Shown here in pieces: positions 12,849 through 40,454 of a stretch of 44,741 nucleotides of DNA (within the stretch, counting starts at the first letter, position 1; every line of letters begins with the position of its first letter). The stretch lies in the IMG/VR virus record IMGVR_UViG_3300044839_000066, positions 1-44,741 of that record; one strand, written 5' to 3'. Made by a program: the position numbers and the translations under genes. Source of the DNA: a virus. Under the pieces are notes generated by a model. The model had not been told where the DNA came from, did no database searches, and saw only the letters and a program-made list of their open reading frames with translations.

Positions 12849-13734
12849 AATTGAGCGGCTGCTGCTTTGGGCGTTCCGCGACGAGCTGTCCAAGCGGCAC
12901 GTATCGGCCGCCGAAGGCGTGTGGGAGAAAATCCGTGACTACGGGCAGCGCGGCGGCGTCGATGCCGATCCAGGCCACGGCGCCGCACAGCGCTACGCTC
13001 ATTTCGGGTTGCCGCACCCGGACGCGGAAAGGATCGAACGGACGATCGGGCAAATTCAGGACGTGGTCGTTGACTGGGCCGCAAGCCTTGACGTGCTGGC
13101 GGGGCCGATGGCCGGCCTCGTTTCCATCAATGACTTTTCGCGGCGACCGCATGGCGAGCCCGCAAAGCGCACCGTCGCCGGCTGGACAGACCCTAAAACA
13201 GGGAAATGGCAAAAAAAGGTAAACCAGCCGCGAGATGTGCTGTTGCTTGGAACGTTTCGCGCCAAGGCGCTGGTAACGATGCACGCGAGCGGCGGGACGC
13301 GGCCGGACTGGAGCGATCGAGAGCCGATGCCGCACAGGGTCCAGGCGGCGAAAGGTAAGAACGCAAAAATCGTTGGAGAATGCGAGGGACGCAACAGATA
13401 TTCGCTCGGGGCCTATTGTCCGATCGAATGGTTGCCGTCGCCGGTGTCGATCATCATGGGGCGCGCTGAATACGCTGTTTGGTGGGATGCTATGAATTGG
13501 CTGGTCGCCAACCTCGATCTTGCCGATTACGTCGCGCTCCCGCCGCGGGCACCGCCGACGCCATGGATCGAAAATAACGAGGCAGAGCAGAGCCGCGTTG
13601 TCCCCGTGATGCCGACCGGAAACAACTACGTCAGCGCCTGGGGAACGTTACCGCTCAATCCTATTCGCCGCATACTGGAGCCACTTCGCCGCGCAACGAG
13701 GGCTGCGCCGATAGCCGCAGCGGGGACCGTGTGA
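12829..13734 (+). CDS. Conserved phage protein of unknown function
   Basis: A 301-residue protein starting at ATG 12829, which overlaps the end of the ribbon-helix-helix gene. It is not a recognised enzyme. Residues about 40–90 are charged (HFGLPHPDAERIERTIGQIQ). Further on it contains RYSLGAYCPIEWLPSPVSII and RAEYAVWWDAMNWL. The composition is that of a folded cytoplasmic protein. A longer frame from 12697 is open but lies inside the previous gene. Confidence 0.55.
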   Translation: MPKTQIEIERLLLWAFRDELSKRHVSAAEGVWEKIRDYGQRGGVDADPGHGAAQRYAHFGLPHPDAERIERTIGQIQDVVVDWAASLDVLAGPMAGLVSINDFSRRPHGEPAKRTVAGWTDPKTGKWQKKVNQPRDVLLLGTFRAKALVTMHASGGTRPDWSDREPMPHRVQAAKGKNAKIVGECEGRNRYSLGAYCPIEWLPSPVSIIMGRAEYAVWWDAMNWLVANLDLADYVALPPRAPPTPWIENNEAEQSRVVPVMPTGNNYVSAWGTLPLNPIRRILEPLRRATRAAPIAAAGTV

Positions 13735-14165
13735 TGGGACATCGCCGCAAGACACCGTTGCTGCTGCATATCGAATTTCTTTTTGAGGTGGAGCATGCCG
13801 ACTACGCGCTCAAGCCCATCTATCAATCGATAGGCCGGGAGTTCTGGAAAGGCGCGTTCGGCAAACGCTCGGTCAAGCTGGTGATCATGACCGAGGAGTC
13901 GTCGCGGGAACTCGTCGCGCGCCTAAAGCTGGACGACATCACGTCGATCGCGGACTTTTCCTGCCACATCGCCCCGATTGGCGCGATCTGCAAACACGGC
14001 GGAATCAGTACCCTGCATTCAGCGCTGGACAAGGCGTGGAAGGCTGTCGGTGAGCGCCGGCATCCCGATTATCGAGGCCAGCGCGAACGGCTAAACCCGC
14101 GACATGAAGCCGTCGCCAGCAATCGCGACTTCGGTGCGATTCGTGAGCGCAAGCGGCACGGCTGA
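13734..14165 (+). CDS. Unknown early phage protein
   Basis: A 143-residue protein whose ATG shares a base with the preceding stop (TGATG). It is mixed alpha/beta (KTPLLLHIEFLFEVEHADYA; GKRSVKLVIMTEESSREL) with a His- and Cys-containing middle (FSCHIAPIGAICKHGG). I do not recognise it. It is the last gene before a terminator, so it closes the early operon. Confidence 0.55.
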   Translation: MGHRRKTPLLLHIEFLFEVEHADYALKPIYQSIGREFWKGAFGKRSVKLVIMTEESSRELVARLKLDDITSIADFSCHIAPIGAICKHGGISTLHSALDKAWKAVGERRHPDYRGQRERLNPRHEAVASNRDFGAIRERKRHG

Positions 14166-14190
14166 CGCTTATTCACAGAAGCGTTGTTTT
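14165..14190 (+). terminator. Terminator at the end of the early operon
   Basis: A 6-bp stem ACGCTT/AAGCGT (14165–14170, 14179–14184) with an 8-nt loop is followed by TGTTTTT, immediately after the stop at 14163–14165. Short stem but well placed. Confidence 0.55.
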
Positions 14191-14334
14191 TCTTGGAGAT
14201 GGCAGTTGACTTGCGGTCACAAGCTTGACAACACTCGCATCATCCGAAATCAGGTAAGAAATTCCGCCCGCCCCGGCACACCGCCGCGGCGGGCGGTTTC
14301 GTCATTGGCAGGCCAACATTTTAACGTTGATCAG
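14191..14334 (+). promoter_or_regulatory. Leader with candidate promoter and a second strong terminator
   Basis: TTGACT (14206) and TTGACA (14225) could be -35 elements, though no good -10 follows either. At 14264–14299 a perfect 9-bp GC stem (CCGCCCGCC/GGCGGGCGG) is followed by TTTCGT, a strong intrinsic terminator upstream of the sigma-like gene. A promoter–terminator leader before late genes is the layout used for antitermination in lambdoid phages. That role is inferred. Confidence 0.45.
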
Positions 14335-15480
14335 ATGCTTCACGACGAAGTCAAGGCGGCAGTGCTCACGGCTATTCGGGCCGGCCATTCGATCCGGTCC
14401 ATCCACCAGCAAGAGCTAGAACTTCCCGATCGCGGCACGATCAAACTTTGGCTGAATACGGATTTGGTTTTCGCGGCGGCCTTTGCCCAGGCGGAAAGAG
14501 ATCGCGGGCCTTCGGCGTCGTTTCGGAAGAGGCAAAAGCGGCCCCGCAAATCTAAGGGGCTGACGCCTCAGGTACGGGCGCAAATCTTAACAGCGGTCGA
14601 AGCCGGGGACTCGTTGAGTCGAGCCCTTGCGCCCAAGAAGGGTTTGCCGGCTCGAAGTACGGTCCTGAATTATGCCCTGACTGATTTGGAGTTCGCGAGG
14701 CGTCTCAACGCGGCTCGCGCTCGCGTCGGTATTCGCGCACTTCAAGCAAAGTGCCAAATAGCCAACAAGGAGAAGCAATACCTAGCGAAGTTTCCTGAAT
14801 TCATTCGGAGGATTGAGGATGGTCAGCTCGTGCGTAAGATATTTTCCGAAATGCGACTCGGTGGGCGGTCATTCGGAGCGTTCTTAAGAAGGAATCCGGC
14901 GAAGTACCAACAGCTGATCGAATTGCGCGTCCAAAGAGCCCGCCGCCGCTTTGCGCCAGAGCATTATGAGCAAGCCCTTGCTCGGTTCGTCTTAGATGTT
15001 TCCACCTCAGTTAATAACTTTAAACCGGAGAGACTTCCGAGTTACCACGCAATGCACCAGCGGTGCGCGCACCATCCGGAATTTGCGGAAGCGTTTGCGA
15101 TTGCGCGCCGGGAACGCATAGCGAAGCGGTGTCAGATCGTTTCGATTAAAAGGAAAAGCGGCGCCCGTCCTGTTTTCCAAACCGCTGTTCTGCGGGGGCA
15201 GCTACTGCAGGATGAACTTTACCGCGCAGCAGAGGCTGCTGTGGGTCGCGGGTTGCCGGAACATACTCGGGACGACGTAAAGGCGGACCTGATCGAAGCC
15301 GTTCTGCTAGATTCCTTTCCAATTGAGGAAATGGCAGAGCACGCCGCAGCATTCGTGACGGCGCATCACCGGCGGATGGAAACTTACAGGTCGAAGTCTC
15401 TTGATGAGACATTGTCCGACGACAACGATATGACCTTCCTCGATCGCCTCACGACGGATGACTACAGCTTTGCGGAATAG
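14335..15480 (+). CDS. Multi-HTH protein with sigma-factor-like C-terminus
   Basis: A 381-residue protein. About residues 7–57, 79–133, 153–206 and 210–262 are four divergent copies of a terminase-small-subunit-like helix-turn-helix module, each ending in a pattern like TDLEFARRLNAARAR or HHPEFAEAFAIARRER. Residues 292–381 (ELYRAAEAAV; RDDVKADLIEAVLLDS; YRSKSLDETLSDDNDMTFLD) resemble a small sigma-factor-like segment, including the SLD-plus-acidic-LxD linker known from sigma factors. It sits behind a terminator-bearing leader and before the packaging genes, so a late-transcription or packaging-site recognition role is plausible. The start at 14335 avoids the terminator hairpin. Confidence 0.6.
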   Translation: MLHDEVKAAVLTAIRAGHSIRSIHQQELELPDRGTIKLWLNTDLVFAAAFAQAERDRGPSASFRKRQKRPRKSKGLTPQVRAQILTAVEAGDSLSRALAPKKGLPARSTVLNYALTDLEFARRLNAARARVGIRALQAKCQIANKEKQYLAKFPEFIRRIEDGQLVRKIFSEMRLGGRSFGAFLRRNPAKYQQLIELRVQRARRRFAPEHYEQALARFVLDVSTSVNNFKPERLPSYHAMHQRCAHHPEFAEAFAIARRERIAKRCQIVSIKRKSGARPVFQTAVLRGQLLQDELYRAAEAAVGRGLPEHTRDDVKADLIEAVLLDSFPIEEMAEHAAAFVTAHHRRMETYRSKSLDETLSDDNDMTFLDRLTTDDYSFAE

Positions 15481-29741: not shown

Positions 29742-30209
29742 ATGGAAACCGATATCAACACCAGCACGAAGCCGGCCGTCGCCAACCTTATGGACGATCT
29801 GCCGATGGATACTTCCGATCTTCACGTCGTGAAACCGGGCACCAACAAGCGCACGGGGTGGGTTGTGACCTTCGCAGGTCCAGGTCACCCGAAAACGATC
29901 GCACTCAACACCGAGACTTTGCGCAAGCAGCTTGACGAGGCGAAGCGTATCAAGCAGTCGCAGGCGAACAGCCGCAAGGTCAAACTCGATGACGAACAGC
30001 CGGAAGATAGTCGCCGCGAGTTCATTGAAGGGCTGGTCGCTCGTATCGTGACCTGGTCGCCGGTCGATTTCGGCGAAGGGCCGATTGAGTTTTCGGACAA
30101 GGCCGCGGTTGCATTGCTGCTCGATCCGAAGAAGGGCGCCTATGTCTCGCAATTCGTCGACTTCCTGATTGACGACCGGGCTTTTATGAAGGGCTCCGCG
30201 ACGACCTGA
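29742..30209 (+). CDS. Tail-assembly chaperone (upstream product)
   Basis: A 155-residue acidic protein in the position of the lambda G / HK97-type chaperone just before the tape measure. It has a helical and charged middle (LNTETLRKQLDEAKRIKQSQ) and a C-terminal VAALLLDPKK-like segment (KAAVALLLDPKKGAYVSQFV). Its last codons overlap a second frame that continues to 30586, so a longer frameshift product is expected. These proteins coat the tape measure during tail assembly. Confidence 0.8.
   Translation: METDINTSTKPAVANLMDDLPMDTSDLHVVKPGTNKRTGWVVTFAGPGHPKTIALNTETLRKQLDEAKRIKQSQANSRKVKLDDEQPEDSRREFIEGLVARIVTWSPVDFGEGPIEFSDKAAVALLLDPKKGAYVSQFVDFLIDDRAFMKGSATT
30173..30207 (+). promoter_or_regulatory. 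Programmed -1 frameshift window
   Basis: Frameshifting must occur between the -1 frame stop (30170–30172) and the zero-frame stop (30207–30209), only about 35 bases. The best slip point is T TTT at 30182–30185 in CGG-GCT-TTT-ATG, where the zero-frame TTT codon can re-pair with TTT one base back. It is not a canonical X-XXY-YYZ heptamer. Confidence 0.6.
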
Positions 30210-31066: not shown

Positions 31067-31144
31067 CGCTCTTCCTCCGCAGCAAACCGGGGAAGCATGC
31101 CGATATTTTCGGCGATGGCAAGTACCGTTAGAGGTTTTCGCTAC

Positions 31145-34100
31145 ATGCCCGCTCCCGTCGTCACTCAATTAATTATCGACGCAAGCGGTGCTCGGCAGGG
31201 CGTTGCCGAGTTCGAAGCGTCGATGGCCAAGGCGAAAGCTGCGGCGGTTGATGGCGGCGCTGCGACCGCGCAGTCATTCGAGTCCGCGCAAAGGCGTTGG
31301 GTTCAATCGCTTGGCGCGACTGACCCGGTAATCCGCGCTCAGATCAGAATGAAGGACGATCTCGCCAAGCAAGAGGCGATCAACACCCGGGCCGTCCAGC
31401 TCGGAATTGCGACGAGCGATGCTGCAAAATCGCAGATGGACGCCGTTCGGCAAAAGCACGAAGGGATGATTCAAACCATCCGGGAACAGACCGGGCAGCT
31501 TGCGGGTAATGAAAAGGCGTGGTTGGGGCTGAAGAACGCAACGTCCGGTGTGTCGGGACAGCTTATCGCACTGAGTGCAGGTGCCGGTCCGGTTGGCGTT
31601 TTCTTATCCGCATTGGGGCCTTGGGGAATTGCCGCCGCGGTCGGGATCGGCGCGATATCCGCAGCCATCAACCACATGATCTCGGAAGCCAATCGGATGG
31701 GCGAGGGCGCTATCGCCATGCGCACCTTTTCTGAGACTACCGGCCTTTCGATCACCCAACTGAAAACGCTGGGCAGGGCAGGCGCGGAGTTTGGAATTGG
31801 CACCGACATAATTTCTGCCAGCATTGAAAAGTTCACCGTCAACATGGAAGAGGCCCGAAAGGGCCAAGGGAAGCTATACGACGAGGTACGCAAAATTGAT
31901 GGCGGCCTTGCCGACGAACTCGCTGCTGCGACAACTACCGCTAAGGCGTGGGACGTGCTCGCCAAGGCGAGGGCGGCAGCGTCTGATCAATCAAAAAACG
32001 CGCTGTCGAAAGCTGCTTTCAACAAAGGAGGATTGGAAACAGGACTTGTTCTGGACGTAACGGCGGAGGCCGGCGGACTTGATGTGCTCGTTGCGAAACA
32101 GCAAAAACTCAACGGGATGACGGATGAGCAGATAAAAAAATGGGGGCTGACGAAAGTCCAGATCGACGAAACGCAGAAGCGAACCGCCAACATGATGGCG
32201 GCGGTGTACAGTCAAGAGGTATTGGACAGGCAATTGCAAGCCGCTCAATTGGAAGAGCGGATAACGCGCGCGTTGGTGGATGCAAACGCCCAGCGCCAGA
32301 AGCAGCGCAGCTATCTCGATTTGTTTTCGGCTGGTGTTGACACCAACCCGAAGACTCCGATGGAGACGGCTAAAGAAAATCTGAAGGCTGGCCTTTCTGC
32401 AGGGCAGAAGCTGGATACGTCCGGGTATGACGACCTGGCAAAGAAATTATGGGCTGTTGTTGACGCTGAAAAGGCGGAAGCGGATGCGCGGAAGCTGCAA
32501 GCGGATGCCGCAACTCGCAGCGCCAATAAGGACAGGGAAAGAATTGGATATCTCGGTTCTGCTGCGACCATTGAAGAGCGCCGCTTACTGAGGATGAAGG
32601 AGTTGGACGCGGCGGTAAAGAGTAATTTCGCTACTCAAACGACTTATGATCGGGCGGTGCAGGCCCTCGATCTCGATACCTTGGCCGCGAAGCAGAGTGC
32701 ATACGTCGCTGCTCTTGGCGCGTCAGCACCAATAGCGCAGATAGTCCTCGACAAGGAACTTCAGCTTCAAAAGCAGCGACTCCAAGACCCTCGTATCACA
32801 AAGGACATTATCGAGTCTCAAAAGCTGCTGATCGCATCGCAGCAACTCGGCACTTACCAAATTCAATCACAGATTGATGTCGAGAAGACGAAGCAAGACA
32901 CCATCGTCATGTCGGCTGGTGCTGCGGCGGCATATACGGCTGAGCAGACCAGGTTGAACAAGGCCCGCCAGGATGGGCAAATCCTGGCGCCGAAGGAATT
33001 GAAAGACCTTCGCGACAAGTCGGTGGCGCTGGGCGTAGCGACGCAGGCTTCCGCGCAAGCCGCTGCACAAAGCAAGGCGGACTTCGATCTTCAAACGATG
33101 TTCCTTTCGGATACCGAAAAGTCCATCGCTCAGGTTCAATTCCAGCTTCGCGGTAATGCTTGGCAGTCGTTCATGAACGACGGGCTTTCGGCATCGCTGC
33201 GATTGGTCGGCTCGTTCAAGGATCTTCAATCATACACCACGGGCTTTACTACCGATCTAGCGCATGGCCTGACGCAAGGTAAATCGTTGGTGGATTCACT
33301 TTCCGCCGCCGCCGTAAATTTGGGCCAGAAGCTGATCGACGCTGGCCTAAACAGCGCCATCAACATCGGTCTGAATGCGATTACGGGCGCGAGTGGTGCG
33401 GGCGGGGCGCTAGGCGGCGCGGCCGGTGGTGCAGCACTCACGGCAGGCGCTGCGACCGCCGGTGCCACGCTCATTGCCTCAGCAACGGCTGCTGCTGGTA
33501 TTCTTGCCGGTGCCGGGGTTGGCGCCGGTACGAGCGTGAGCCTCGGGGCGGCCGATGCTTCGCTACTGCTGGACTTCAGCGCGGCAGACGCCGCCGCGAC
33601 GCTGGGCATCGGTGGAGCTACGGCGGGGACCGCGCTTGATCTCTCAGCGGCCGCGGCCGGCGTGTCGCTGTCGGCTGGCGGTGCGGCGGCTGGTCTAGCG
33701 ATATGGGGACCGATCGCCGCCATCGCCGCAATTCTTATCGGCATCGGCCTTATGTCTGCCGGTGGCGAAGACAAGGTTAAAAAAGCGCAGGAAGAATGGA
33801 AAAAGGCCGGACCCGCGTTCCAGAAGTTTCTAACCGAAATGAGTGGCGGCGTTCAAGGTAACTTGTCGCAGCAAATTCAGGACGCGTCAGCCCGCGAAGC
33901 TGATTTTGAGGACCGGGCATGGAGGGCGAGAGACGTAGCAGCGATCAACGCGGCGCGCTCGGGATTGCAGCGCTTCTCCGACAACCAGAAGCGCCTGTTC
34001 CTATCGACAGTTTCCGCGACCGTTGAAGGGCTCAACGACGGGCTCGGCCTCGACAGCCCCTTTATGAAAGCTGTCGGGAACATCAAGACCGCCCTGAACT

Positions 34101-36667
34101 CTCAGCTCGCATTCATTGATGACGCGAATACTGCGCTGGGCGACCAATCGTATGACGGCGTTACACTCGAAAAGGCGCGCTCGGCTTCACAGGCTTATAT
34201 GGTCTCGCTGCTACAGCAACCCCCAGCGCTGTCAGCCGTGCAAACCGGACTAGCCCAAATCCACGGTACCGCCAACGCGCTGCAGGGCGCGCTGATGCAG
34301 CTAGGTCTATCGTCAACGGATGCGGCAAGAGCCATCAGCAACGGCGTCAGCAAGGCCATCGCAAATCTGAAAAAACAATTCGAGGAAGGGCTGACCGAAC
34401 GGCTCAATACCGCAAACGGGAAATCATACCTGAACGACGCCACGAAGTTGCTCGCTCAGCATCAACAGGATTTGACCGATGCAGCGTCGCTAGGAGTCGA
34501 CCCGGCGCGGGTTGCGACGCTCTTCCGAGCCGAGGCGCAGAAAATTATAAACGATGCGGGCCTGGTTGGCGGTGCTTTCACCGACTTCATCACTCAATTC
34601 CCGCAGCTCGCGGATATCGTCACGCAGGCGACCAAGGATATCGCCGGGGGAATATCTGATTTCAAAGCCGGGCTAACCTCTCGACTGAACATCGCGCACG
34701 GCTCGTCATTCCTGAACGATGCAGCATCACTTCTGAAGCAGCACCAGCAGGACTTGGCTGACGCCGCGAGGTTCGGCAACGATCCCGCTTTGATGACGCA
34801 AATTGCGACGCTGTTCGCGGCCGAAGCGCAGAAGATCGTTAACGGCGCGGGCTTGGTCGGTGACGCTTTCAGTTCCTTTAAAACGCAATTCCCCGATCTC
34901 GCGGGTGTTGTGGTCGAGGCGACCGATTCCATAGCGGCTTCGCAGAAGCAGCTACAGGACGGCATCAATTCGACTGCAAAAACTCTCGTAGATTATGTCG
35001 CCAGCATTACCACCGGACCGAACTCGACATCATCGCCGCAGGATCGGTTCAACGCCGCGCAAGCGGTTTACAGTGCAAAGCTGGTGCTGGCGCAGGGCGG
35101 CAACATCGACGCGCAGAACACCATTTCTCAGGATGCGGAGAACTATCGGCAAGCCGCGCGCGACCGATTCGGTTCGGCGATGGGCTATCAGAGCGTGTTG
35201 CAACAGATCAAGGCGCAGTTGCTCGCGCTTCCCGCCGTTCAGCAAACAACCGACCCCGTTGTTCAGGCGATGCGGGACGTTCTGCTGGCCATCCAGGCGA
35301 CCACAACTGCGGTGACGGGGACCACGTCGGCGATCACGGCGATGCAGGGCGCGCTGATCGGCGGGCTGGCCTCCAACAGCCCGGCGGCGATAGCAGGCGC
35401 TTTCCTGCAGGGTGGCATCGGCGTCGGCGGGCTTACCGCAGCGCAGTTTTCGTCGATCTTTGGCATCGGCCTGACCTTCGACCAGTTCAAGAACGGCTTC
35501 CCGCCCGGGCTCGCCAGCGACGCCACCTTGCACGATCTCTTTGACGTGATCGACGCCAACAAAGACGGCATTATCACGCAACTCGAATTGTTGCAGGCGG
35601 CATTGAAGCCCGCCATCGATTCCGGGAACGCTTCGGCGATTGCTTCTGCGCTGTCGAACTACTTCAACGCGATCGACACGAACACCAGTCAGACGATCGA
35701 TTTGAGTGAGATGCAAACCGCGTTGGCGGGCATGGCCAGCAATTCGGCGCTGGTGAGCATGTTCACCCGCCTTGATGCCGACAACTCTGGATCGATCAGC
35801 AGGCTTGAGCTGATCAAGGCTGCGTCGCAATCCACCACTAACACGGTTGCGACCGTTTCCGATACGATATCGACGGTTTCGGATCAAATCCACAGCACCA
35901 TCGTCCTGCAGGATGCGGCAAATTCACTGACGACGACGGCGAACAATATCGCCAACGCACAATGGGTTTTGCTTGACGCGATCAGGGCATTGCAGACGAC
36001 CGCAAATAGCCAATTTAATTTGCTCAATGCAGCGCTTAACCCCACAATCAATCCCGTCACCTTATTTTTCACGAAGACCGGCGCGGGGACGAGTGATCCA
36101 CAAAGTGAGCACACCGCAGTTAATGAGCAGGCGCTTACCGTTTTAGAAAAAATCAACATCAACACATGGGCGACTGCTGGTAACACACGCGCTCTTATTG
36201 TTGGTGCCGCCAACGTCTCAGCGCGTGACGGACTTTTCGCTGCTGGTGGATGGGTCACCGGCGGCACCCCTGGCGTGGACAGCGTTCGCATTCTTGCGCA
36301 GCAAAAAGAGTTCATCGTCAATCCATACGCTACGAGTGCCCTCACCAGAGATTACGGCCCCGGGGTGATGGACCTGATCAACAGCGGCAGGTTGCCGTCG
36401 AACGATAATTTCAGGGCGAGCAATGTAGTGGACTTCAGCGCTGCGTCACGGTTCCCCGCGACAGCGCCAGTCGATAATGGGCAGCACTTCGTCACTCTGG
36501 CGCAAACGCTTGCCAGGACAATGGTTGAAGTTTCTCTCACCGAAATGGCCTCTGCCAAAGAAGAGAGTGCCGCGCTCCGGTTGCAGGTCGCCGCTCTGAC
36601 TGCTGAGCTACGCAGCAAGCCCGCGCCGGAACGGCCGAACGCCAGACGTACCGGAACGAATAGATGA
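31145..36667 (+). CDS. Tape measure protein with EF-hand motifs
   Basis: A 1840-residue tape measure from ATG 31145 (AGAGG ribosome-binding site). Residues about 1–120 contain the typical start VVTQLIIDASGARQGVAEFE, and a hydrophobic segment lies near 145–195 and another near 740–875 (Ala/Gly-rich, then WGPIAAIAAILIGIGLMSAG). Residues 1082–1272 are a tandem duplication. Three EF-hand-like loops start at about 1470, 1511 and 1544. The C-terminus has the usual FAAGGWVTGGTPGVDSVRI and VMDLINSGRLPS segments. It sets tail length and may eject with DNA. By the usual ruler relation the length implies a long tail. Confidence 0.95.
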   Translation: MPAPVVTQLIIDASGARQGVAEFEASMAKAKAAAVDGGAATAQSFESAQRRWVQSLGATDPVIRAQIRMKDDLAKQEAINTRAVQLGIATSDAAKSQMDAVRQKHEGMIQTIREQTGQLAGNEKAWLGLKNATSGVSGQLIALSAGAGPVGVFLSALGPWGIAAAVGIGAISAAINHMISEANRMGEGAIAMRTFSETTGLSITQLKTLGRAGAEFGIGTDIISASIEKFTVNMEEARKGQGKLYDEVRKIDGGLADELAAATTTAKAWDVLAKARAAASDQSKNALSKAAFNKGGLETGLVLDVTAEAGGLDVLVAKQQKLNGMTDEQIKKWGLTKVQIDETQKRTANMMAAVYSQEVLDRQLQAAQLEERITRALVDANAQRQKQRSYLDLFSAGVDTNPKTPMETAKENLKAGLSAGQKLDTSGYDDLAKKLWAVVDAEKAEADARKLQADAATRSANKDRERIGYLGSAATIEERRLLRMKELDAAVKSNFATQTTYDRAVQALDLDTLAAKQSAYVAALGASAPIAQIVLDKELQLQKQRLQDPRITKDIIESQKLLIASQQLGTYQIQSQIDVEKTKQDTIVMSAGAAAAYTAEQTRLNKARQDGQILAPKELKDLRDKSVALGVATQASAQAAAQSKADFDLQTMFLSDTEKSIAQVQFQLRGNAWQSFMNDGLSASLRLVGSFKDLQSYTTGFTTDLAHGLTQGKSLVDSLSAAAVNLGQKLIDAGLNSAINIGLNAITGASGAGGALGGAAGGAALTAGAATAGATLIASATAAAGILAGAGVGAGTSVSLGAADASLLLDFSAADAAATLGIGGATAGTALDLSAAAAGVSLSAGGAAAGLAIWGPIAAIAAILIGIGLMSAGGEDKVKKAQEEWKKAGPAFQKFLTEMSGGVQGNLSQQIQDASAREADFEDRAWRARDVAAINAARSGLQRFSDNQKRLFLSTVSATVEGLNDGLGLDSPFMKAVGNIKTALNSQLAFIDDANTALGDQSYDGVTLEKARSASQAYMVSLLQQPPALSAVQTGLAQIHGTANALQGALMQLGLSSTDAARAISNGVSKAIANLKKQFEEGLTERLNTANGKSYLNDATKLLAQHQQDLTDAASLGVDPARVATLFRAEAQKIINDAGLVGGAFTDFITQFPQLADIVTQATKDIAGGISDFKAGLTSRLNIAHGSSFLNDAASLLKQHQQDLADAARFGNDPALMTQIATLFAAEAQKIVNGAGLVGDAFSSFKTQFPDLAGVVVEATDSIAASQKQLQDGINSTAKTLVDYVASITTGPNSTSSPQDRFNAAQAVYSAKLVLAQGGNIDAQNTISQDAENYRQAARDRFGSAMGYQSVLQQIKAQLLALPAVQQTTDPVVQAMRDVLLAIQATTTAVTGTTSAITAMQGALIGGLASNSPAAIAGAFLQGGIGVGGLTAAQFSSIFGIGLTFDQFKNGFPPGLASDATLHDLFDVIDANKDGIITQLELLQAALKPAIDSGNASAIASALSNYFNAIDTNTSQTIDLSEMQTALAGMASNSALVSMFTRLDADNSGSISRLELIKAASQSTTNTVATVSDTISTVSDQIHSTIVLQDAANSLTTTANNIANAQWVLLDAIRALQTTANSQFNLLNAALNPTINPVTLFFTKTGAGTSDPQSEHTAVNEQALTVLEKININTWATAGNTRALIVGAANVSARDGLFAAGGWVTGGTPGVDSVRILAQQKEFIVNPYATSALTRDYGPGVMDLINSGRLPSNDNFRASNVVDFSAASRFPATAPVDNGQHFVTLAQTLARTMVEVSLTEMASAKEESAALRLQVAALTAELRSKPAPERPNARRTGTNR
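34388..34960 (+). repeat. Tandem duplication in the tape measure
   Basis: Two copies, of 94 and about 97 codons, begin GLTERLNTANGKSYLNDA (34388) and GLTSRLNIAHGSSFLNDA (34670). Both contain LL-QHQQDL-DAA and AEAQKI-N-AGLVG-AF. A small insertion separates them in length. Codon-level divergence indicates an old event rather than assembly error. Confidence 0.85.
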
Positions 36668-37056
36668 GCGCTTCATCTTACCTGCGAAAAAAGCTGGTCG
36701 ACCTTCTTACCGGCGCCGCCTCCTATACGCCCGGCCCGCTCTATTTGTCGCTTCACTCGGCTGACCCGGGACAATCGGGATCGCATGCTTACGAAATAAC
36801 CGGCGGCGGCTACGCAAGGCAATCGCTGGCGGGAAACATGACGACGGCCGATCCTGTCACCGGAATCAGCATCAACATGGCGGCGATCAACTTCGGGCCT
36901 GCATCTTCGGATTGGGGAGTGGTCGCGTTCTTAGGGATCGAGGACTCGGTGTCCGGCGTGATGCTTATTCCAGGCGTGCCGGCGACACCGAAAACCATCA
37001 CCACAGGCCAACCGTTTCAGATCGCGCCCGGCAATCTGCGCCTTCGGCTTACCTGA
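36664..37056 (+). CDS. Tail protein, member 1 of a tandem paralogous pair
   Basis: A 130-residue protein starting by ATGA overlap with the tape measure stop. It has the pattern LRKKLVDLLTGAASYTPGPL, YLSLHSADPGQSGSHAYEI and a C-terminal beta half. The same order (N-terminal LVDLL/LLKLIF helix, Y-LALHTA-PG, G-YAR) recurs in the next gene. Location behind the tape measure suggests a tail-tip or distal-tail component. Exact role unknown. Confidence 0.6.
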   Translation: MSASSYLRKKLVDLLTGAASYTPGPLYLSLHSADPGQSGSHAYEITGGGYARQSLAGNMTTADPVTGISINMAAINFGPASSDWGVVAFLGIEDSVSGVMLIPGVPATPKTITTGQPFQIAPGNLRLRLT

Positions 37057-37107: not shown

Positions 37108-37536
37108 ATGGGCTTTTCTTCCACGTTTCAGAATGACCTTCTTAAGCTGATATTCAATGCATCGCCAATCGCGAATGTTGCCGACAACGCGGCGGCTTCG
37201 CCTTTGACAAACATCTACCTCGCGCTCCATACGGCCAACCCCGGCACCACGCCGGCACAGACGACGAGCGAAGCGGCTTATTCGGGCTATGCCCGGGTTA
37301 CGGAGCCGCGGACATCGGGCAGCTGGACCGTGACCGGTAACAGCGTTTCCAACACCACGGAAATCTCATTCCCGATCGCGACCGGTGGCAGCGAAACGGA
37401 ACAATATGCATCGGTCGGTCAGGCCGCGAGCGGTGCCGGGAAGATCATCATTTCTGGCGCGCTGTCGCCAACCATCGTGGTTGCAAGCGGTGTTACGCCG
37501 GTGCTGACGCTTGCGAGCGCGATCACGATCAGCTGA
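37108..37536 (+). CDS. Tail protein, member 2 of a tandem paralogous pair
   Basis: A 142-residue protein with an AGGAG ribosome-binding site. It aligns with its neighbour: FQNDLLKLIFNASPIANVAD, IYLALHTANPGTTPAQT, SGYARVTEP, then beta strands and a C-terminal GVTPVLTLASAITI. The pair probably arose by duplication and diverged. Proteins of this type occur in siphophage tail-tip modules. Confidence 0.6.
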   Translation: MGFSSTFQNDLLKLIFNASPIANVADNAAASPLTNIYLALHTANPGTTPAQTTSEAAYSGYARVTEPRTSGSWTVTGNSVSNTTEISFPIATGGSETEQYASVGQAASGAGKIIISGALSPTIVVASGVTPVLTLASAITIS

Positions 37537-38882: not shown

Positions 38883-40454
38883 ATGTTTCATCCCTTTAGC
38901 ACGCAACCGTTTCTGGCGAGCGGTCGCGAAGTCCGTGCCTATCTCGACATGCGCGTGGACCTTGATGCGTCGTTCGACTTTACGATCTATGTCACCACCA
39001 GGGCAGGGTACGCGACACGGCCGACAGACACGATCGCGAATCAACCGTTCAGGGGAGTGCTGCAAAGCTATTCGTTCCAACGCTCGATCCTGCAGCAGGA
39101 CATTGGAACATTTACGACCGGTGCTGGCCAACTGGTGATTTCCAACACCGATGCGCATTATGATTTCCTGCAGCAAGACTACACGATCGACGCGCGACCG
39201 ATCAATGTAAGGGTCGGTCGGGTCGATGCATCTTATGACGAGGCTTTCACGCTCGCGCGGCTCACTTCAACGGGATGGCGCGTCAACGTTGATCAGGTCA
39301 GCATCGACCTTGTCGATTACAGCTACAAGCTTGATGTTCCGATGCAGCCGAACGTTTACGGCGGTAGCGGTGGTGCGGACGGCGGCGACGACATCGCCGG
39401 CAAGCGAAAGCAGATGCTGTTCGGCTACTGCCGGAACGTCTCGATGCTGGCGGTTTGGCCGGGCCTGCTGATCTTCCAGGCGAACGACGGGTCAATGCAG
39501 GCGGTGGTCGCGGTTTACGATCGCGGGTCGGCGCTGTTGTTATGGGCGGACTATGCGACCTTCGACGCGCTTTCGCATGCAACCGTCCCGGCCGGTTACT
39601 ATGCGACTTGCCTTGCCGAAGGCTTCATCAGGCTCGGGGCTGAACCTTCCGGCACGCCGACCGCCGATGTCAGGGGCATGAACGCGCAAGGCTACATCGT
39701 GACGACGGCCGATATAGCGCGTTGGGCAATTCGAAACCGGACCGTGATTGTCGATCCTGACGGCCTAGCAACTGCATCATTCGCCACATTGAACACCGCG
39801 CCGATTGACTACTGCATCGCGCCAGATGACTCGATAACCGTTGCGGCCTTCATCGCCAACATTATGGGCGCCATCGGTGGTTGGGGCGGGCATCGCCGTG
39901 ACGGTCTCTTCGAAGTGCGGGTCTTTGCGGCGCCAACCGGAAATCCAGTCGCATTCTTCAGCCGCAAGGATATGATCAGCGGCGACATCGACCGACAGCC
40001 ACTGCCGTCGTCCTATCGCCCGCCGCCGTGGCGCTGGCGTATGGCTTACGCGAGATCATGGACCGTCCAAACCGATCTAAACGCCGATGTGCCGGGTGAT
40101 CACAAGGCGTTCGTTGCTGAGAGTTTCAGAGTTGCGGAAGCTTCAAACCCCGCTGTGAAGGTGAACTACCCGTTCGCCCAGGACCGCGACCCTGTTCAGT
40201 CCTATTTTTCTTATAAGCCTGATGCCGATGCTGAGGCGGCGCGCAGACTCGCGTTGTTCAATGGACTCGGTTCGATCTACCGCGAGACGTTGCCCCGCCG
40301 CGCGCTTCGCCTGAACATGGGCGATGAAATCCACATCACTCACGAACGCTTCGACCTTTCCCAAGGCAAAAACATGATTGTTGTCGAGATCGCCGAAAGC
40401 ATCAACTTCGCAGATAGTTCCGTGGATTCTGTTCAGGTCGCCGCCTGTGGGTAA
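38883..40454 (+). CDS. Conserved tail-tip protein
   Basis: A 523-residue protein starting 5 bp after the repeat gene. It has a beta-rich N-terminus (TFTTGAGQLVISNTDAHYDF), a GGDDIAGKRKQMLFGYCRNV segment characteristic of a tail-protein family in rhizobial phages, and a C-terminus with FDLSQGKNMIVVEIAES. It probably belongs to the tail hub or tip. Family function is not established to my knowledge. Confidence 0.65.
   Translation: MFHPFSTQPFLASGREVRAYLDMRVDLDASFDFTIYVTTRAGYATRPTDTIANQPFRGVLQSYSFQRSILQQDIGTFTTGAGQLVISNTDAHYDFLQQDYTIDARPINVRVGRVDASYDEAFTLARLTSTGWRVNVDQVSIDLVDYSYKLDVPMQPNVYGGSGGADGGDDIAGKRKQMLFGYCRNVSMLAVWPGLLIFQANDGSMQAVVAVYDRGSALLLWADYATFDALSHATVPAGYYATCLAEGFIRLGAEPSGTPTADVRGMNAQGYIVTTADIARWAIRNRTVIVDPDGLATASFATLNTAPIDYCIAPDDSITVAAFIANIMGAIGGWGGHRRDGLFEVRVFAAPTGNPVAFFSRKDMISGDIDRQPLPSSYRPPPWRWRMAYARSWTVQTDLNADVPGDHKAFVAESFRVAEASNPAVKVNYPFAQDRDPVQSYFSYKPDADAEAARRLALFNGLGSIYRETLPRRALRLNMGDEIHITHERFDLSQGKNMIVVEIAESINFADSSVDSVQVAACG

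Follow-up and report, generated by a model that had tools for sequence, protein, structure and literature searches.

A paired EF-hand domain predicted in the distal tape measure protein of a temperate siphophage and some of its relatives

The tape measure protein (TMP) encoded by the window, by which we mean the whole 44,741-nucleotide stretch of viral DNA analysed here, carries in its distal part what is, judged by sequence and structural model, a real, selected and modular EF-hand domain. From this domain we infer calcium binding, its folding state inside the tail and a role in ejection. The evidence for the domain consists of pattern and profile matches, a predicted paired fold, the presence of the same block in other phage tape measures, and the conservation of the putative calcium ligands.

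Results

The window encodes the tape measure protein of a siphophage

The window carries predicted genes for an integrase, a terminase, a portal protein and an HK97-fold capsid protein, a content that marks it as a temperate siphophage of the HK97 type. Its open reading frame (ORF) 31097-36667 is predicted to be the tape measure gene, as it is long, lies 3' of a chaperone gene and matches TMP families. In particular, phrog_16823 ('tail length tape measure protein') matches TMP residues 814-1373 with an E-value of 1.2e-30. The identification is supported by the match of an upstream gene to a tail assembly chaperone family.

29742..30209, + strand: tail assembly chaperone, 5' of the tape measure gene (phrog_313, E-value 5e-4, a weak match)
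31097..36667, + strand: tape measure protein, 1856 aa, bearing the EF-hand block (ORF; phrog_16823; homology to tape measures of prophages and contigs)

Directly 3' of the tape measure gene, two adjacent small genes (36664-37056 and 37108-37536) each give matches to Pfam Gp80 (podophage GP4 fiber I protein) and to phrog_240, and they represent a tandem duplication. Matches to phrog_8917, a family of unassigned function, were found at 38883-40454 in the window and at 13479-14963 in the Halomonas element L007 described below, in both cases shortly 3' of the EF-bearing tape measure gene; the product is probably a tail tip component.

Three EF-hand loops are encoded in frame within the tape measure gene

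The original prediction had placed three 12-residue EF-hand loops in this protein. Their coordinates proved exact, and translation puts all three in frame within the 1856-residue ORF.

35552..35587, + strand: EF-hand loop 1, DANKDGIITQLE, canonical (PS00018 and Pfam)
35675..35710, + strand: EF-hand loop 2, DTNTSQTIDLSE, with Gln for Gly at position 6 (PS00018 and the Pfam EF-hand_7 pair)
35774..35809, + strand: EF-hand loop 3, DADNSGSISRLE, canonical (PS00018 and Pfam)

All three loops fit PS00018, the PROSITE EF-hand pattern, at ligand positions 1, 3, 5, 9 and 12, and they are followed by L, M and L, respectively. Loops 1 and 3 are canonical, as had been proposed. The middle loop had been called degenerate, but it matches the same pattern and its sole departure is the Gln at position 6, so that it is not seriously degenerate. 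No other PS00018 match was present in the 30,267 residues of window frames (stop to stop, at least 100 aa, both strands), and 5000 shuffles of the TMP gave a mean of 0.008 matches and a maximum of one.

Pfam EF-hand models matched the whole TMP above their curated cut-offs. This was the case for EF-hand_6 (E-value 1e-11; 43.9 bits, cut-off 25), EF-hand_1 (38.4 bits, cut-off 25.4), EF-hand_5 (37.6 bits, cut-off 25.9) and the EF-hand_7 pair (35.4 bits, cut-off 30), which upholds the original prediction at the profile level. The EF segment alone scored better with Pfam EF-hand models than the whole TMP (2.5e-15 and 1.6e-14). A chance motif is ruled out by the Pfam E-values together with the shuffles and the window-wide pattern scan. 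Dockerin type I (PF00404) was rejected because the window segment reached 14.2 bits, which is under the cut-off of 22.9; the weak PF00404 matches observed in nine relatives are expected from the shared loops. An RTX or type I secreted repeat protein, with nine-residue GGxGxDxxx repeats, was rejected because the Pfam matches include no RTX repeat family. A PHROGs profile search with the EF segment alone returned no named family.

The loops are part of two predicted helix-loop-helix pairs

The EF block is located between a conserved helical module and the C-terminal region, in the distal third of the TMP and about 270-410 residues from its C-terminus.

35030..35239, + strand: helical module (SPQDRFNAAQAVYSAKLVLAQGGN...LLALPAV), directly 5' of the EF block, common to EF-bearing and EF-less relatives
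35438..35857, + strand: whole EF-hand block, two helix-loop-helix pairs (AlphaFold2 model; second pair superposed on polcalcin)
about 35438..35494, + strand: hand 0, a putative vestigial first EF-hand with two short helices and no usable loop (alignments; AlphaFold2 helices 6-14 and 19-24)

An AlphaFold2 model of 149 residues shows eight helices as well as short beta strands within loops 2 and 3. Its mean pLDDT is 74, and most of the block has values of about 75-86. An earlier, longer model, for which the alignment was thinner, was of lower quality (mean pLDDT 55.5); in that model, the upstream module forms three helices with pLDDT values of 61-83. The eight helices can be read as four hands in two pairs, in which hand 0 would be joined to the hand of loop 1, and the hand of loop 2 to that of loop 3. 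Within hand 0, the segment GLTFDQF aligns with IDGVLTREQL of group B. Thus, the three loops described originally are real, but they are not isolated, since they appear to belong to two pairs comprising four hands, one of which is loop-less.

The structure prediction that had been suggested as a check gave an EF-hand-like model. Its best PDB matches in Foldseek were, with few exceptions, calmodulin or other proteins of the EF-hand type, and the second pair, which alone was superposed, fitted the EF-hand pair of polcalcin Phl p 7 with a Z-score of 8.9 and 2.4 Å over 64 residues. This Z-score is modest, yet it agrees with the sequence profiles. A fold search of BFVD yielded no phage tape measure and weak matches only, some of which were giant-virus EF-hand proteins.

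By profile, loop and predicted paired fold, the block is assigned to the EF-hand fold family (PF13499/PF00036/PF13405). It shares with calmodulin, polcalcin and troponin C (PF13499, PF00036) the paired helix-loop-helix arrangement and the loop D-x-D/N-x-D/S-G-x-I-x-x-x-E, with Pfam scores above cut-off in the window TMP. However, those proteins are free sensors or buffers, whereas the hands of the window sit inside a phage tape measure, the first of them has no loop, and their calcium binding is a prediction.

The same block is found in other phage tape measures

Relatives were found with the EF block and the upstream module as queries, and the full TMP as query gave no match against viral contigs. 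Pfam EF-hand matches were present in 24 of the 34 TMP C-termini gathered, a fraction that is no prevalence because the collection was seeded partly with EF-hand searches and EF patterns. EF-hands are present in the tape measures of related phages as well. They occupy the same place in the tape measures of EBPR siphovirus 2, of IMG/VR contigs, of two alphaproteobacterial prophages (in a Hyphomicrobiales MAG and a Xanthobacteraceae MAG) and of a Halomonas plasmid. Since the same arrangement recurs in many independent contigs and prophages, an assembly or frame error that fused a host EF-hand gene to the tape measure was rejected.

EF-hands share one polypeptide with PhageMin_Tail in L025 (E-value 3e-40) and with TMP_2 in L006 (E-value 2.5e-44), and PHROG tape measure matches were obtained for the EF-bearing proteins of L006, L007, L008, L009 and L025. 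One C-terminal EF cassette is therefore common to N-terminal tape types that differ from each other. A more distant tape measure (L061; PhageMin_Tail, E-value 4.7e-26) has two canonical loops at the corresponding place, and its full protein gave no EF-hand Pfam match at an E-value of 1e-4.

The loop count across EF-bearing relatives ranges from 2 to 11. The highest count belongs to L007, the Halomonas qaidamensis 'plasmid' NZ_CP080628.1 of 45,853 bp, where the eleven loops are partly encoded by a 405-bp tandem repeat of 3.4 copies. The protein concerned (WP_264431568.1) is annotated only as 'EF-hand domain-containing protein', and its first 2131 residues match tape measure PHROGs. With its genes for a major capsid protein, a portal-like protein, tail proteins and the tape measure, besides one for a reverse transcriptase/maturase, this replicon looks like a phage-plasmid or an extrachromosomal prophage.

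Some C-termini carry further elements. The EF-bearing C-terminus of L051 (2263-3585) has an apparent DUF4214 domain with a GR.PDL.GLQYW-type motif, and PF13946 was matched by one of the 34 C-termini (3.3e-9). In L044 (8001-9545), three EF-like loops are followed by short repeats of the form LLTQ(A/Q)QL(S/A)ALGLS.D, which is a further repeat expansion within this region.

In genome samples the EF block is rare, with matches in 1 of 397 genomes for the order, 3 of 385 for the class and 1 of 398 for the phylum, each of these counts including G001, the prophage genome used as centre. The other two class matches, L059 and L060, contained no EF loops in the parts that were read. Short EF-hand frames of Streptomyces (L010 and L011) were excluded, as they showed no sign of a tape measure.

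The block is gained, lost and duplicated

The isolate phages Sansa, vB_MaeS-yong1 and Me-ZS1 have the upstream module in annotated tape measures with no EF loops. L031 and L046-L054, counted among the EF-less relatives, may either have lost the block or have lacked it from the start. In L028 (8001-9485) and L034 (8001-9287), an EF helix is kept (NAANVAAALQSYFNQIDPSG in L034) and the loop is gone, which looks like decay, that is, loss of an EF-hand. A tree of the upstream region implies that the EF trait was gained or lost four times or more, even when only well supported branches are counted. No tandem repeat was detected in the window DNA, and the two pairs of the window therefore appear to be old. 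Taken with the variable loop counts, these sequences indicate that the EF block is a cassette whose copy number varies and which has been duplicated or lost from one phage to another. Since the block is missing in the close relatives L028 and L034, ejection does not need it, which speaks against an obligatory gate, and with some relatives devoid of it, the block cannot be a universal ejection gate.

Repeated gain and loss would fit a host-specific use. Loaded hands might bind a tail-tip protein, or a host protein of the periplasm or inner membrane, in the way calmodulin binds its targets, and the number of hands would then reflect host choice. The predicted paired, calmodulin-like arrangement is in keeping with this, and so is HK97, whose ejection reportedly depends on PtsG and a periplasmic chaperone, a need linked to the TMP (Cumby et al. 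2015). The partner, however, is putative, and we regard such docking as unlikely.

The predicted calcium ligands are conserved

The EF block of the window is 68% identical to that of prophages L008 and L009, compared with 39-44% for the upstream flank and 33-39% for the downstream flank. The dN/dS ratios of the block in these comparisons, about 0.17-0.26, are rough because synonymous changes are near saturation. Among 72 distinct loop matches, which were chosen on positions 1, 8 and 12 only and include a few that are not real loops, the ligand positions are restricted to N/D/S at position 3, D/S at position 5 and S/D/T at position 9, and the non-ligand positions 2, 7, 10 and 11 vary. The predicted calcium ligands are, on this evidence, kept by selection.

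This pattern bears on the view that the EF pairs are spacers, that is, repeats that tune the length of the tape and are kept by descent, with a calcium function that was lost or never existed. Copy number does change by whole pairs, as in the tandem repeat of L007, and tail length is set by TMP length (PMC5099701). Nevertheless, mere spacers would not be expected to keep calcium ligand positions where neighbouring loop positions vary, nor to be better conserved than the flanking tape, and plain helix is the usual way in which tapes lengthen. We consider this explanation very unlikely.

Discussion

The best explanation for the block, which we hold tentatively, is that its hands fold on calcium during ejection. 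Calcium is low in the cytoplasm and high outside the cell. The TMP would be synthesised at the free calcium level of the host cytoplasm, about 0.1 uM, with its hands empty, and the segment would then be slim and weakly folded, so that it could be threaded together with the other TMP copies into the narrow tail tube. On leaving the tail tip with its C-terminal side first, the TMP would encounter calcium at millimolar levels, either in the periplasm or outside the cell. Its hands would then load and fold, which would help to pull the TMP out and stop it from sliding back, and folding would give a compact ejected form spanning the envelope. Extra EF pairs would strengthen the effect. A domain that is made where calcium is scarce, in the cytoplasm, and let out where it is plentiful, in the envelope, would thus be in a good position to fold on exit.

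Since the TMP C-terminus lies in the tail tip lumen of lambda (PMC10721106) and T5 (PMC11313276), and the TMP of RcGTA is a trimer that fills the channel (PMC7296036), the distal block would be one of the earliest segments to leave. However, its distance from the C-terminus probably places it somewhat above the tip, which counts against the mechanism, as does the only moderate confidence of the AlphaFold2 model. The slim-when-empty step is also doubtful, because apo EF-hand pairs are often partly folded. A parallel for the proposed mode is provided by the RTX proteins, which leave the cell by type I secretion (for a review, see PMC6891781). Their repeats are empty in the low-calcium cytoplasm and fold at external calcium, and PMC13224072 describes this folding as driven by calcium. 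RTX proteins differ in having a beta-roll instead of EF-hands, and in their carrier and route, so that this is an analogy only.

Alternatively, calcium might enter the finished virion, and the folded hands would pack the distal tape in the tail or in the tip cavity until a trigger, either falling calcium or receptor binding, frees it. Many phages do need calcium for stability or infectivity, and the interior of the TP901-1 baseplate is a large cavity filled by the TMP C-terminus (PMC5099701). Yet the block lies away from the extreme C-terminus, folded EF pairs of several TMP copies would presumably be hard to fit abreast in the tail tube, and the eleven-loop array of L007 would be larger still. 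Such static stabilisation is conceivable but not likely.

Accessory domains as such are already known in siphophage tape measures, and what is new is the EF-hand as one of them. Mycobacteriophage TM4 and T5 pb2 are examples with extra cell-wall-related domains. They resemble the window in that an accessory domain is built into a tape measure destined for ejection into the envelope, but theirs acts on peptidoglycan, whereas that of the window is a predicted calcium-binding fold of variable copy number. In the open-access literature, we found no description of EF-hands in a tape measure, in line with the absence of any known role that had been noted originally, and papers naming both do so for unrelated reasons only. 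In the only such screen that we found, the structural proteins of phage TP-84 were searched for EF-hands on the assumption of a calcium need, and none were detected (PMC5889276). The phage lysin LysGH15 has an EF-hand-like calcium site (PMC4022735); like the window TMP it is thus a phage protein with such a site, but it is a lysis enzyme, as opposed to a tape measure with paired EF-hands.

About two dozen related phages have kept and multiplied the EF-hands, which suggests, as far as sequences can tell, that calcium helps to control the TMP at DNA injection. For this siphophage family, it is possible, albeit doubtful, that calcium serves as a directional cue for genome delivery, with EF arrays that would be empty and slim during assembly, would fold in the calcium-rich envelope and pull the tape out, and whose number of pairs would be tuned by duplication. 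The exit of the tape measure from the tail, and its part in the passage of DNA across the envelope, are poorly understood, and the calcium need of so many phages usually lacks a molecular explanation. Natural variants with none to eleven loops, and predicted sites that can be mutated, would offer a direct test of both TMP exit and the calcium need, and EF-hands in the tape measure may be a sequence explanation to seek when such a phage is found to be calcium dependent.
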